From: Thermosynechococcus sp. CL-1
Lineage (GTDB): Bacteria > Cyanobacteriota > Cyanobacteriia > Thermosynechococcales > Thermosynechococcaceae
Assembly: GCF_008386235.1 (NCBI RefSeq)
Contig: NZ_CP040671.1
Span: forward strand, 1,118,001 to 1,182,000
Length of the DNA: 64,000 nt
Direction: 5' to 3'
Position 1 is the first letter of the stretch, and every line of letters begins with the position of its first letter. This document shows, one piece after another, positions 23,500-27,762 of the stretch. A program made the translations under genes and the position numbers. The notes under the pieces are model-generated. The model was not told where the DNA came from. It did not search any database and saw nothing but the letters and a program-made list of their open reading frames with translations.

Positions 23500-26400
23500 C
23501 TACCATGGAACCCCTACCATTGTAAAAGCAGCCCAGTAGTAGGGATGATCGAGGGAACGACGACCAGCCCCTTGGGTAACTTCTGGGGGTAACGGGATGC
23601 GGCCACGAATTGTTTGCAGTTCATTGTCCTGGATGCGAATATTGCCGCGCAGCATCGCTAGCTGCGCTTGCCGTAGCGCCTCGGCCTTAATGGGTACCGT
23701 ATTTAACAAATCGTAGAAAGTAGTCATCAGCGCCAACGTCCCCTCATCGCTGACATACCACAAACTGGCCAGCACCGACTTCGCCCCCGCCTGTACCGCC
23801 AGACCCGCAAACCCCAGTTCTGCATCCAAATCTCCAACCGCCGTGCGGCAGGCACTGAGGGTCAAAAATTCTGCTTGGGGACGGTTAAGCTGTAAGCCTT
23901 GGAACTGCAAAAGATTCAATCGCCCATCCCTAAAAGCAATGTAGGAATTTTCTGCAGCTCCTGGTTGAAACTCAGCGTGAGTGGCCAAATGGATTACAGG
24001 GTAGAGTCCTTGACGGCGCTGTTGTCTAAAATTGGCAATTGTAAAGGCCTCATTGAGAAAGGCTTGACCTCCTCCTAGGTTTTTAACAATCTGCGCCACC
24101 TCTAGGGGCGCCATCGGCAAGGGGGACTGATCCGGGAATTCCGATGCCCCCATTGCCAAGATGGGTTCCTGTTGAATACTGCGGTAGCGAATATCCATGA
24201 GCCTTATACTGGGAACCAGTGCCGTGCTAAATTGCTCTACAAGAAAGTTTTGACCATCATGGAGCGCTGCCAAGGGAATGCTACGCATACCACTGTCTAG
24301 AACAAAGACCAGTGTGTCAATGCCCTGGGCATTCAATTTAGCACGCAAAGGGTCAATCAACCATTGGTAAAGCTGTTGTGCCGCCGGTAGGTAAGTACGG
24401 GTATTGATCAGGCGTGGATCACGCACCCTGTTAATAAAAGTATCCACTGTTTTTAATAACTGTTGACGCCCCACTCCCTGCAGCGGTGTATAAAGCGGCC
24501 TCCCCTCTGGGGTAACCGAGATGAGATCAAATTGGTCAGGCCGGGCTAGGGTGTAAATGACCGCTGGCTTTTTACCTGTTTGCTTGGCAATTTCATTGAG
24601 GGCTGCCTGCAAATCCTCAAGGGAGAAATCCTGCCTATCACAGGTACGTTCTAGATAACTGCTAACTTCTAGACAGCCCCGTAGATCGAGTAACGCCAGT
24701 GCACCTTCAATGTTATTGCTAGCTAGGGCAGTCTCGATATCTCTAGTTAAGAGAATTTCAGGGGGAACGCTGGGTACTTTAAGGGGGTCTGGGATGACTG
24801 GTGTAGGGGGTTCTAATAGTGGATTGGCTTCTTCAGGAGAAATCAAGCTGCTATCGACAACATTTTGACCTGTATTTTCAAAACGAATATTTCCGACCTC
24901 CACAAGACCTGAAAGCGTTGTGGGTACAGGAATAATCGATCCCTCGGCTTGAATTGCCCCTGCAGTTCCATTCCTTTCGGAATTGCCCACTAAAAATGGA
25001 GTAGCATTGTTGATAAAGATATTCACTGAGTCACCCCATACCGTGGTAGGCACACCATTGAAAACAAACGTACCCAAGCCACGCAGTGAATTTTGCGCAT
25101 AAATATCAACACTGCCCGCCCCAGCCTTAATCCAGTTGAAAACTAGATTGCCTCCCCTTAGGTTGACATCCCCACCACCAGTCGTCAAATGACCCAGCGT
25201 TAAGTTGCCGCTGGGTATTGTCTGGAGATTAGTGAATAGATCAGGCAGTGTTAAATCATCATCCGGAATTGGATCAATCGTACCTCTAGAGGTTGGAATA
25301 GGGAAATCACCAGTCCAAGCTAAGAAGTTACCACCGTTGGTGAAGATATCACCCGTCGTAATCGTAGGCGCAAACAGTGTAACATTGCCACCACTGCCAG
25401 CTGTATTGATATTACCTGTTGTTAAAGCACCCCTGTAGGCAACAGCAGCCAAATCACCCCCGCGAGTCGTGATATTACCAGTTGTTATGTCAGTTATGGA
25501 ATCAAGATAAACAAAACCACCGTTGCTGTTGATATTGCCAGTTGAAATACCCCCGCTTCCTGAAAAGACTGCGATCGCTCCGCCTGCACTGATTAGGTTG
25601 CCGAGAGTGATGTCATTAAAAGCAACTACGCCGATAGTACCACTACTTTGAGTTACTTGCAAATTACCAGCAGTAATCTTAAGTACAGAGTCTAGACTAA
25701 TATCTGAACTAGTGGTGACATTGTTCAACTGAATATTACCAAGAGCATTGATGCTTAGACTTGCAGTGTTGACTGTTCCTGAAACTGCGGTTTGACCTGT
25801 TGAGTCAATATTCAAAGAATGATTGCCATTGATATTGCCATTGAATGTAATATTTTTCCCTGAAAAGCTCGTTGAGTTTAGTAGAGTTGTGTTACCACTG
25901 AATTGGATACTGCCTGCAGATGCATTAACTAAACCTCCAAGGGAAATCGTACCCCCACTACTCTGTAGATTAATACTTCCACCTGATGTACTGAGAACAT
26001 TGCCACTAGAAGGAAGGAAGATATTGCCACTAGCTTGGAGGGTGATATTGGCGCCATTAGTTTGTATGGGAGCATTGGCACTAATGTTTGCTGCACTGAT
26101 ATTAATTGGATTATTGAAGGATGATTGATTTTGAATCACTCCCTGTGCTTGTAATACCAAGCTCCCCTGAAGCGAGATGGGGTAGCCGATGATGATATCA
26201 TTATCAGCCTGTAGCGTGAGTGAGTTTGTCGAGCTGCTGGAAATTGAGGTTTCTACATAGATATTCCCAGTAGAATTTGCAGTACTGTCTGTTGTTATCA
26301 CAACGTTTGTGGACTTGAGTGCTGATAACAGCGTTCCTATAGTTAACACAGAAACTGAAGGAAAGTTTGATAATGCTTTAAAGGGCGAAGAGGAAGTAAT

Positions 26401-27762
26401 GTTCAAATCATACATGCTATTACTGATATATATGTCTGTTGGATCAAGTAATAATGTTCCTGTGTTGCCATTTAGGGCAGTGGTATCGACTCTGCCTTGA
26501 AAATCCAGAAACTGTTTGCTGGAAACTTCGACAAAGCCGCCATCTCCCCCAAGGGCACCGCCACGGCTACTGATCTGGCCATAAAAACGCGTGTTGTGCT
26601 CTGCCCAATTGATAATTGTGCCCCCGTTACCCTGATGGGTGGCATCAGCATTCAAAAGAGTACCGGCATTAACAAAAAGGTTTTGTGCATTGAAGCTACT
26701 GCCCAGCCGGCCGGTTCCTGTTGTTCCCCCTAGGTAGTCACCACCAATGAGAATTGTGCCGCCCCCTGTATTACCCGCAGCATTCAGTTGAGCATTAATC
26801 AGAGCAATATTACTGCCTTGGCCAGCAATGGTGATTTTACCCCCGGCGCCAGTGGTATGACTCACATCTATCGTGCCGCCAATGACTGCTGTATTTGTGG
26901 TTAGGGGAATCTTGGTACTGTCGTGAACTAAATGAATCGTGCCATCTGGATTTTGAATCACGCTATTGACGGCAGGATAGCCATTACCCCCTGTGAGTAA
27001 CGTCGGGAGATCAATTGGCTGAATAATGCCTGCGGCGGGCAATCGCTCTTTGGGAATCTCTAGACTGAGGAGCATGCCCTCTTGGGAAATGCGCACCAGA
27101 CCTGATTCAGGTACCGCCACAACATTGACCGTGCCCCCCGTTGCGCCAAGGGTACCTGTATTGATCACCTGATGCGCCATCAGGGTCAGGGATTGACCGT
27201 CATTAACCCTAAGATTGCCTTCATTAATTAGGATGCCTCTATTGGCAAATTCAAAGCCAATCGGGGAGCCATTGAGTTGGCTGTAGGTGTTTGAACCATT
27301 GAGATCAAAGAGGCCATTGCCAAAGTGAACGCGCTGGGCTGTCGAGGCATGGAATGCCGCTGGTAGATTCAACTGCGCATTCGGACCAAAAACAATACCT
27401 GCAGGATTCAGGAGGTAGAGATGACTGTTTCCGCCTGTAACTTGCAGCACGCCGTTGATATAACTAGCACTGCCACCATTGACGCCAGCAAGAATGTTGC
27501 GAATTTGCGGGGTAGAAAGAAAGTTGGCGATTTGCCCCTGCTGGACATTGAAATCACGAAACAGGTGAAAAAGGTTTTGGCCATCGGCAGAACGTTGTCC
27601 GCCACCAATGTTGAACTGATGGTTGACGGTTTCTACGGTGGTGCCAGTGGCATTGGGAGCGGGGGTAATTTCAGCAAGGGCGGGTGTGCCAAGAAAAGAG
27701 GTCAAGCTAGTCAGGATCACCCAGCTGTAGGGCAACACTTTTGTTAAGCATTGAGAATTCAT
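23500..27762 (-). CDS. Secreted haemagglutinin-like exoprotein with C-terminal CHAT (caspase-like) domain
   Basis: The 1420-residue protein starts with a signal peptide (MNSQCLTKVLPYSWVILTSL, cleavage near ALAEI). A two-partner-secretion (filamentous haemagglutinin) N-terminal domain of about 230 residues follows, with NPAGIVFGPNAQLNLPAAFH. A long Gly/Ser/Asn-rich beta-helix-like repeat region then runs to about residue 1010. The C-terminal ~330 residues are a CHAT domain with the caspase-type pair His1262 (HLATHAEF) and Cys1305 (LSACRTAVG). CHAT proteins are caspase-related peptidases. No TpsB outer-membrane partner is in the window. HIP1 sites are sparse across the gene, unlike its neighbours, hinting at transfer or at a repeat-rich, fast-evolving gene. 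It lies 111 bases downstream of the PP2C gene. Confidence 0.9.
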   Translation of the reverse strand: MNSQCLTKVLPYSWVILTSLTSFLGTPALAEITPAPNATGTTVETVNHQFNIGGGQRSADGQNLFHLFRDFNVQQGQIANFLSTPQIRNILAGVNGGSASYINGVLQVTGGNSHLYLLNPAGIVFGPNAQLNLPAAFHASTAQRVHFGNGLFDLNGSNTYSQLNGSPIGFEFANRGILINEGNLRVNDGQSLTLMAHQVINTGTLGATGGTVNVVAVPESGLVRISQEGMLLSLEIPKERLPAAGIIQPIDLPTLLTGGNGYPAVNSVIQNPDGTIHLVHDSTKIPLTTNTAVIGGTIDVSHTTGAGGKITIAGQGSNIALINAQLNAAGNTGGGTILIGGDYLGGTTGTGRLGSSFNAQNLFVNAGTLLNADATHQGNGGTIINWAEHNTRFYGQISSRGGALGGDGGFVEVSSKQFLDFQGRVDTTALNGNTGTLLLDPTDIYISNSMYDLNITSSSPFKALSNFPSVSVLTIGTLLSALKSTNVVITTDSTANSTGNIYVETSISSSSTNSLTLQADNDIIIGYPISLQGSLVLQAQGVIQNQSSFNNPINISAANISANAPIQTNGANITLQASGNIFLPSSGNVLSTSGGSINLQSSGGTISLGGLVNASAGSIQFSGNTTLLNSTSFSGKNITFNGNINGNHSLNIDSTGQTAVSGTVNTASLSINALGNIQLNNVTTSSDISLDSVLKITAGNLQVTQSSGTIGVVAFNDITLGNLISAGGAIAVFSGSGGISTGNINSNGGFVYLDSITDITTGNITTRGGDLAAVAYRGALTTGNINTAGSGGNVTLFAPTITTGDIFTNGGNFLAWTGDFPIPTSRGTIDPIPDDDLTLPDLFTNLQTIPSGNLTLGHLTTGGGDVNLRGGNLVFNWIKAGAGSVDIYAQNSLRGLGTFVFNGVPTTVWGDSVNIFINNATPFLVGNSERNGTAGAIQAEGSIIPVPTTLSGLVEVGNIRFENTGQNVVDSSLISPEEANPLLEPPTPVIPDPLKVPSVPPEILLTRDIETALASNNIEGALALLDLRGCLEVSSYLERTCDRQDFSLEDLQAALNEIAKQTGKKPAVIYTLARPDQFDLISVTPEGRPLYTPLQGVGRQQLLKTVDTFINRVRDPRLINTRTYLPAAQQLYQWLIDPLRAKLNAQGIDTLVFVLDSGMRSIPLAALHDGQNFLVEQFSTALVPSIRLMDIRYRSIQQEPILAMGASEFPDQSPLPMAPLEVAQIVKNLGGGQAFLNEAFTIANFRQQRRQGLYPVIHLATHAEFQPGAAENSYIAFRDGRLNLLQFQGLQLNRPQAEFLTLSACRTAVGDLDAELGFAGLAVQAGAKSVLASLWYVSDEGTLALMTTFYDLLNTVPIKAEALRQAQLAMLRGNIRIQDNELQTIRGRIPLPPEVTQGAGRRSLDHPYYWAAFTMVGVPW

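Follow-up and report, generated by a model that had tools for sequence, protein, structure and literature searches.

Can a caspase-like peptidase be carried out of the cytoplasm by a two-partner secretion (TPS) exoprotein and, if so, where would it act? This question is raised by a gene in a 64,000-nucleotide stretch of the genome of the hot-spring cyanobacterium Thermosynechococcus sp. CL-1 (NZ_CP040671.1, positions 1,118,001 to 1,182,000; hereafter the window). A reading of the letters alone (the original prediction) had described a 1420-residue protein there with a TPS domain, long repeats and a C-terminal CHAT domain. The open reading frame (ORF) at 23500..27762 on the minus strand starts with ATG, spans 4263 bp and encodes 1420 amino acids (aa), and its Pfam matches (TPS, residues 31-230, E 8e-32; CHAT, PF12770, residues 1126-1417, E 5.5e-72) agree with that description. 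The catalytic candidates named in it, His1262 and Cys1305, were found exactly at those positions, in the motifs HLATHAEF and LSACRT. We propose, with a probability of about 0.58, that in this TPS-CHAT protein a two-partner-secreted exoprotein carries a cysteine peptidase acting outside the cytoplasm. Its features are as follows.

23500..27762, minus strand: whole coding sequence, TPS-CHAT protein of 1420 aa (ORF and domain profiles).
27673..27762, minus strand: Sec signal-peptide-like leader, residues 1-30, ending ALA before EITP (by eye).
27073..27672, minus strand: TPS secretion domain, residues 31-230 (Pfam E 8e-32, model and Foldseek).
24808..27072, minus strand: beta-repeat region, residues 231-985, without cysteine (many predicted strands at low to moderate confidence).
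24733..24807, minus strand: proline-rich linker, residues 986-1010, of low conservation (identity to four orthologs 32-52%).
23503..24756, minus strand: two-lobed CHAT peptidase region, pseudo-caspase plus active lobe, residues 1003-1420 (AlphaFold2 model and Csx29/TPR-CHAT match).
24640..24675, minus strand: C1030 and C1041, candidate disulfide pair (paired presence or absence in 115 sequences).
23977..23979, minus strand: catalytic histidine candidate H1262 (invariant in 180/180 aligned CHATs).
23848..23850, minus strand: catalytic cysteine candidate C1305 (invariant in 180/180; 43 residues from H1262, as for Csx29 H615/C658).

We modelled residues 1003-1420 with AlphaFold2 and 53 relatives, and obtained a predicted local distance difference test score (pLDDT) of 93.2 and a predicted template modelling score of 0.93. 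Structural comparison with VIA-align matched the model to Csx29/TPR-CHAT (Z 29.8), separase (24.4), DdvA (20.5), the gingipain RgpB (18.7) and caspases (about 13). The Csx29 alignment extended over 335 residues at a root-mean-square deviation of 3.0 and covered the whole model, including the pseudo-caspase lobe. H1262 and C1305 (segment residues 260 and 303), which the original prediction had supposed to be paired, were both placed in core strands of the predicted structure (254-263 and 297-305), as a putative catalytic pair. Moreover, the His and Cys of the dyad were invariant in 115/115 CHATs of the TPS/short type and 65/65 of the TPR type, giving 180/180; these groups were set by our own labels, and the count leaves out rows shorter than 380 aa, rows open at the 3′ end and rows identical in the last 200 aa. 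A sequence search of solved structures returned one chance-like match (E 0.03) and no convincing relative. Pfam reported CHAT and TPS as the only families, with no Peptidase_C14 (metacaspase) match at E up to 1, and a metacaspase identity was therefore rejected. By profile, dyad and fold, the domain is a CHAT peptidase, for which proteolysis is predicted.

Among the proteins of known structure, the gingipains RgpB and Kgp share the caspase-like fold (4ief, Z 18.7). They are exported bacterial proteases of another family and secretion route than TPS-CHAT, and their specificity is not implied for the CHAT domain studied here. Separase, a eukaryotic intracellular cohesin protease, likewise combines a pseudo-caspase with an active caspase (5fby, Z 24.4), but identity is 10-15%. 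Csx29, the TPR-CHAT protease of Craspase, is alike over the whole two-lobed CHAT region and in its His-Cys spacing of 43 residues (the catalytic pair being H615 and C658 in an excerpt of PMC10028731, which also likens Csx29 to separases). However, Csx29 is RNA-activated and sits on TPR repeats in a CRISPR complex, whereas the CHAT domain studied here sits on a TPS exoprotein, and identity in the structural alignments is 11-14%. As a side observation, DdvA (PDB 8rw5/8rot, ranks 28 and 30) is a transmembrane anti-sigma factor with a domain matching the CHAT model at Z of about 20, which places a CHAT-like fold on a further protein of membrane signalling; a literature search gave no paper naming DdvA among the matches listed.

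The model of the N-terminal part (residues 31-1002, 972 residues) had a mean pLDDT of 62.0 and was good mainly in the TPS part, most of which scored 80-95. Foldseek matched this part to the secretion domains of EtpA, HMW1, HxuA, hemolysin A and FHA, and an NCBIfam match to adhes_NPXG covered residues 65-143. The repeat region, where a TpsA protein would have its beta-helical stalk, was modelled as strand-rich with low to moderate confidence, too weak for detailed interpretation. By its N-terminal TPS domain after a Sec leader, the protein is a TpsA-type exoprotein, and it resembles EtpA, HMW1, HxuA and FHA in combining a TPS domain with a stalk that is predicted to be strand-rich. A TpsA protein that is a protease, LepA, is described in an excerpt of the review PMC5422565; no CHAT-bearing TpsA was described in the literature found, and the word CHAT does not occur in that review.

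Export of TPS-CHAT we infer from sequence and evolution together. In the mechanism that we propose, the Sec leader would send the protein to the periplasm, the TPS domain would engage the genome's single TpsB match, which is encoded 0.4 Mb away and presumably also serves a second TPS-CHAT, and the beta-repeat stalk would fold outside. The C-terminal cargo would be a separase/Csx29-type CHAT cysteine peptidase with H1262/C1305, working outside the cytoplasm and most likely at the cell surface, where it would cut a specific envelope or extracellular partner, not proteins at large. The domains, the dyad, the co-occurrence of the parts, the selection and the leader-like N-termini are features of the sequences themselves; catalysis and single-site cleavage by CHAT we infer, and its final location may be the surface or the periplasm.

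The secretion partner was searched for in the whole genome, a single contig of 2,647,823 bp. Pfam found six CHAT matches, two TPS matches, both of which are TPS-CHAT proteins, and one TpsB (C1:733088-734056), which has POTRA_2 and ShlB domains and lies about 0.4 Mb from the gene. The earlier remark that no TpsB is nearby therefore holds for the window, where the local ShlB model found none, and has to be extended by the one unlinked TpsB of the genome-wide check. Among 39 genomes, this one included, 33 carried TPS and 35 carried TpsB, and TpsB was present in 33/33 genomes with TPS versus 2/6 without (Fisher p 2e-4). The two genomes with TpsB and no TPS were G006, in which the slot of the gene under study is occupied by a form without TPS, and G008, in which the two CHAT frames of this type are cut at contig ends. 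TpsB matches were commonly fewer than TPS matches in the genomes searched, TPS and TpsB standing at 2:1 in the CL-1 genome and at 14:1 in G012, which shows that several exoproteins per transporter are a frequent arrangement in this set. TPS-CHAT adjoins TpsB in three loci (L075, L110 and L154).

We then compared the same locus in congeners. Full-length orthologs lay between a PP2C gene and hemC in three of them (L056, L060 and L062 in G001, G005 and G007), and a fourth (L064 in G010) was full-length and beside PP2C, in a fetched stretch without hemC. The ratio of nonsynonymous to synonymous substitution rates (dN/dS) of the TPS, repeat and CHAT regions was 0.09-0.17 where dS was finite, several comparisons being saturated; the TPS region was 77-90% identical to the four orthologs at a dN/dS of 0.09-0.12. 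The repeats were less conserved than the TPS region, and in 2/4 orthologs also less than the active CHAT lobe by at least 5 points. Syntenic orthologs together with low dN/dS indicate that the gene is more than a chance ORF.

In three other congeners (G002, G004 and G006) the slot between PP2C and hemC held a CHAT-only frame of 493-539 codons, without TPS and repeats. The N-termini of these short forms passed a rule-based leader test; in G002 and G004 the residues MAFRVLVRVW, and in G006 the residues MLTRRFQ, are followed by a hydrophobic stretch. On a quick tree, G002/G004 and G006 stood apart among the TPS-CHATs, so that TPS and repeats were probably lost at least twice. Where dS was finite, the CHAT dN/dS of short versus full-length forms was 0.11-0.16 for G002, 0.11-0.15 for G004 and 0.06-0.10 for G006; the close pair G002-G004 gave 0.30 at a dS of 0.06. 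The leader and the low dN/dS of these TPS-less forms suggest that selection has kept a leader-bearing CHAT after loss of its carrier. Two further genes show signs of family decay within the genus: in G003 (L058) a CHAT frame without ATG near its 5′ end, in a fetched stretch without PP2C or hemC, looks like a remnant, and in G002 (L071) a second TPS-CHAT gene is split over two frames.

Beyond the genus, relatives were taken as the best 80 loci of at least 557 confirmed across genome contigs, with CHAT ORFs called by local models. These loci held 85 CHAT ORFs, 51 of them with TPS: 46 TPS-CHATs closed at the 5′ end, 5 open at the stretch end, 21 CHAT-only frames closed and 13 open. TPS-CHAT frames ranged from 887 to 3381 aa, indicating a variable stalk length. 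The TPS-CHAT fusion is thus widespread in cyanobacteria, its parts already being labelled by Pfam and NCBI profiles. No description of TPS-CHAT was found in the literature among the matches listed, which were mostly papers outside subscription; PMC12691664 and PMC5108060 each make one passing mention of a CHAT protein. TPS-CHAT is a widespread architecture, uncharacterised as far as the literature search reached, and not a unique one.

The leader test was applied to CHATs with closed 5′ ends, and was passed by 40/57 TPS-CHATs, for which export is expected, 44/61 long TPS-less CHATs and 29/39 short TPS-less CHATs. As background, 125/493 ORFs passed over 60 codons, 155/493 over 120 codons, and 104/790 shuffled N-termini. 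Pooled TPS-less CHATs (73/100) exceeded the background of 155/493 (p 2e-14), and long TPS-less CHATs did not differ from TPS-CHATs (p 0.84). By source, the 73 comprised 55/70 regions picked from listed CHAT matches, 11/20 from named loci, 4/7 from congeners and G013, and 3/3 from the CL-1 genome, namely two TPR-CHATs and a 406-aa CHAT. ORFs with open 5′ ends, 1/25 of which passed, do not enter these figures; the sampling is biased towards strong CHAT matches, the 811-aa CHAT of the CL-1 genome, which shows no leader by eye, being too divergent for the local model and lying outside the 100, and some failures are broken or mislabelled TPS-CHATs (e.g. L058, L071, L075 and L118). The comparison was made among cyanobacterial CHATs alone, and export is hence not set off as special to cyanobacteria.

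These counts bear on the exported caspase-like peptidase that had first been noted: a dyad-keeping caspase-like domain on a two-partner-secretion protein stands, and the implied contrast with cytoplasmic cyanobacterial CHATs is not supported by this sample, in which the TPS-less CHATs mostly pass the leader test too. The original prediction had also suggested comparing the phylogeny of the CHAT domain with cytoplasmic CHATs. We built a quick tree without bootstrap from 104 domains (30 of 62 TPS-CHATs, 39 short and 35 of 60 long CHATs; 19 rows of unknown 5′ end were excluded), on which two long branches were flagged. A branch supported at 99 by the Shimodaira-Hasegawa-like approximate likelihood ratio test separated 72 rows, comprising 30/30 TPS-CHATs, 33/39 short and 9 long CHATs, from the TPR type with 26 long and 6 short rows. 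If the root is placed on the TPR side, short CHATs branch first and TPS-CHATs are nested within them (50 rows, support 95). TPS-CHATs therefore group with most short CHATs and apart from most TPR-type CHATs.

Gene neighbourhoods gave a further view of the parts. Outside the genus, 22/143 TPS matches among the matches listed lay within 10 kb of a listed CHASE2 gene versus about 3.9 expected at random, a 5-6-fold excess, and 24/143 within 10 kb of TpsB versus about 1.5 expected; clustered genes are not independent in these counts, and some of the 143 TPS proteins are without CHAT. CHASE2-type model matches occurred in 10/80 named loci, and Pfam confirmed CHASE2 in 8/8 of those scanned: with a histidine kinase in L149, where the frame starts about 60 bases after TPS-CHAT, with a cyclase in L142, with a CHAT domain in L102, L130 and L155, and alone in L124, L140 and L143. 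A DUF928 family, assigned by three members scanned, recurred in 7/86 clustered loci. On two Gloeothece citriformis plasmids, pP742402 (L235) and pP742401 (L236), CHASE2, CHAT, TPS and an outer-membrane BamA/TamA-type gene lie in one cluster; the last is ShlB/POTRA_2 by Pfam on pP742402 and typed as BamA/TamA only on pP742401. In Nostoc MS1, the TPS and CHAT genes overlap by 8 bases, and the CHAT appears interrupted by a transposase. The CHATs of both plasmids and of Nostoc MS1 have leader-like N-termini by eye. These plasmid clusters and adjoining genes indicate that the TPS-CHAT fusion joins parts that elsewhere travel together. One of the two plasmids was also typed as conjugative. At the CL-1 gene itself, no such arrangement adjoins.

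That CHASE2 and DUF928 recur in the neighbourhood elsewhere among cyanobacteria points to a control of membrane signalling by proteolysis, the partner being the least certain part, and most CHAT proteases of cyanobacteria appear to be exported and linked with TPS and CHASE2 genes. A wider proposal, which we regard as doubtful but worth stating, is a pan-phylum extracytoplasmic caspase/separase-type module of TpsB, TPS exoprotein, exported CHAT, CHASE2 receptor and DUF928, in which CHAT, fused to or encoded beside the exoprotein, would set the activity of a membrane sensor according to surface events; the Thermosynechococcus TPS-CHAT would be a stripped-down, dispersed version of it.

Several results weigh against a secreted peptidase at the cell surface. 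The leader of the CL-1 protein, visible by eye, fails the rule-based test because its hydrophobic core is too weak, although 4/4 full-length same-locus orthologs (L056, L060, L062 and L064) pass; the test itself is a home-made rule with a high background rate of 25-31%. As TpsB is unlinked, its pairing with TPS-CHAT is by exclusion, and TpsB occurred in the fetched stretch of only 2/80 named loci. The CHASE2 link was seen in other cyanobacteria, whereas all three CHASE2 genes of the CL-1 genome are distant from either TPS gene. The C-terminal domain, if folded, might get stuck in the TpsB pore and be retained in the periplasm. The cysteines fall on both sides. In favour of export, the mature chain of 1390 aa has three, the candidate catalytic C1305 and the pair C1030 and C1041, which are both present in 8/115 aligned relatives, both absent in 107/115 and never alone. 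Against it, the 8 sequences with the pair all belong to the genus, being members at the same locus or the G003 remnant, and a general disulfide anchor was rejected on these counts.

The rival that survives best places the peptidase in the periplasm. The stalk would cross TpsB, and the folded CHAT would remain behind as a tether for the filament, which it might set free by cleaving its own linker or a different TPS protein. The periplasm is the only compartment common to leader-only CHATs and TPS-CHATs, which favours this explanation more than we had expected. The linker preceding CHAT is rich in proline and evolves fast, C1030/C1041 could lock the fold before the pore, and there is a parallel in CdrA, whose periplasmic C-terminal tail is cut by LapG to free it (an excerpt of PMC5422565). 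However, the cysteine pair is absent in 107/115 relatives and leader-only CHATs occur without a fused stalk, so that we consider the anchor unlikely, if a serious contender.

It is improbable that CHAT is no longer an enzyme and merely caps an adhesin. No activity report for the TPS/short CHAT clade was found, and in Csx29, the closest relative with a solved structure, the catalytic residues are out of place before target RNA is bound (an excerpt of PMC10028731), as a structural role would allow. But both catalytic residues are kept in 115/115 clade members, and the CHAT dN/dS is 0.06-0.16 even where the rest is lost (0.30 for G002-G004).

In favour of a contact-dependent or polymorphic toxin against neighbouring cells is the enzyme domain at the C-terminal end of a TPS protein, the layout of CdiA-type systems (a general account is in an excerpt of PMC5422565). 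At this locus, the gene stop is 7 bases from the convergent hemC stop with nothing encoded between, so that there is no adjoining immunity gene; nor is there a TpsB operon. Polymorphic toxins carry a variable C-terminal toxin on a conserved stalk, the reverse of TPS-CHAT, whose C-terminus is conserved while the stalk varies. We rejected the toxin as highly improbable, given the lack of an adjoining immunity gene and the conserved C-terminus. That TPS-CHAT stays unexported with its TPS region a relic is barely credible: the leader is weak by rule, but the TPS region is held at 77-90% identity and a dN/dS of 0.09-0.12 to four orthologs, TpsB is retained in the genome, and the TPS-less derivatives have leader-like starts.

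An extracytoplasmic TPS-CHAT peptidase, as we prefer to read it, would extend a family in which the CHAT-fold proteases Csx29, HetF and separase kin have mostly been studied as intracellular or membrane-linked machinery. HetF is also a cyanobacterial CHAT protein, but in an excerpt of PMC8406250 its CHAT region is N-terminal (aa 1-555) and accompanied by one predicted transmembrane segment and TPRs; HetF is a divisome component there, shown with no TPS domain. The cyanobacterial p20 metacaspases share the caspase fold but belong to the Peptidase C14 family; some of these, distinct from CHAT, are reported or suggested to act outside the cell or to be fused to CHASE2 (excerpts of PMC3501461 and PMC2853523). 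If it is true that cyanobacterial CHATs mostly act outside the cytoplasm, ideas on cyanobacterial "caspases" and cell death need revision. The CL-1 genome offers a simple system, with one TpsB, two TPS-CHATs and one leader-only CHAT, and TPS-less variants at the same locus in sister species. Thermosynechococcus is a transformable thermophile.

The composition of the gene was also as first noted: highly iterated palindrome 1 (HIP1) is sparse, with 1 site in the gene where the window averages 6.75 per 4263 bp, and equally low counts in 6/598 sliding windows. The GC content of the repeat region is 0.448 versus 0.532 for the window. Recent horizontal gain as the cause of the sparse HIP1 was rejected, since congeners have the gene in synteny and under selection and its repeat region is GC-poor. 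A promoter and terminator scan around the gene was uninformative (7 versus 6.8 and 3 versus 4.6 in shuffles).

Other CHAT genes gave some minor observations. In L119 (10505-12625) and L130 (11343-13460), a short exported CHAT is followed by a conserved protein of 706-707 aa that matches no Pfam family. At C1:601479-605152 (L014:4480-8153), the 406-aa leader-bearing CHAT of the CL-1 genome follows, on the same strand, a glycosyltransferase-2 gene that has a weak cellulose-synthase match, a possible link between an exported CHAT and exopolysaccharide. At C1:656328-661376 (L015:4329-9377), a sigma-70-like gene, a DUF1822 gene and the 811-aa CHAT stand in a row; in L130 and L155 these three genes recur next to short exported CHATs, the CHAT of the trio there being fused to CHASE2.

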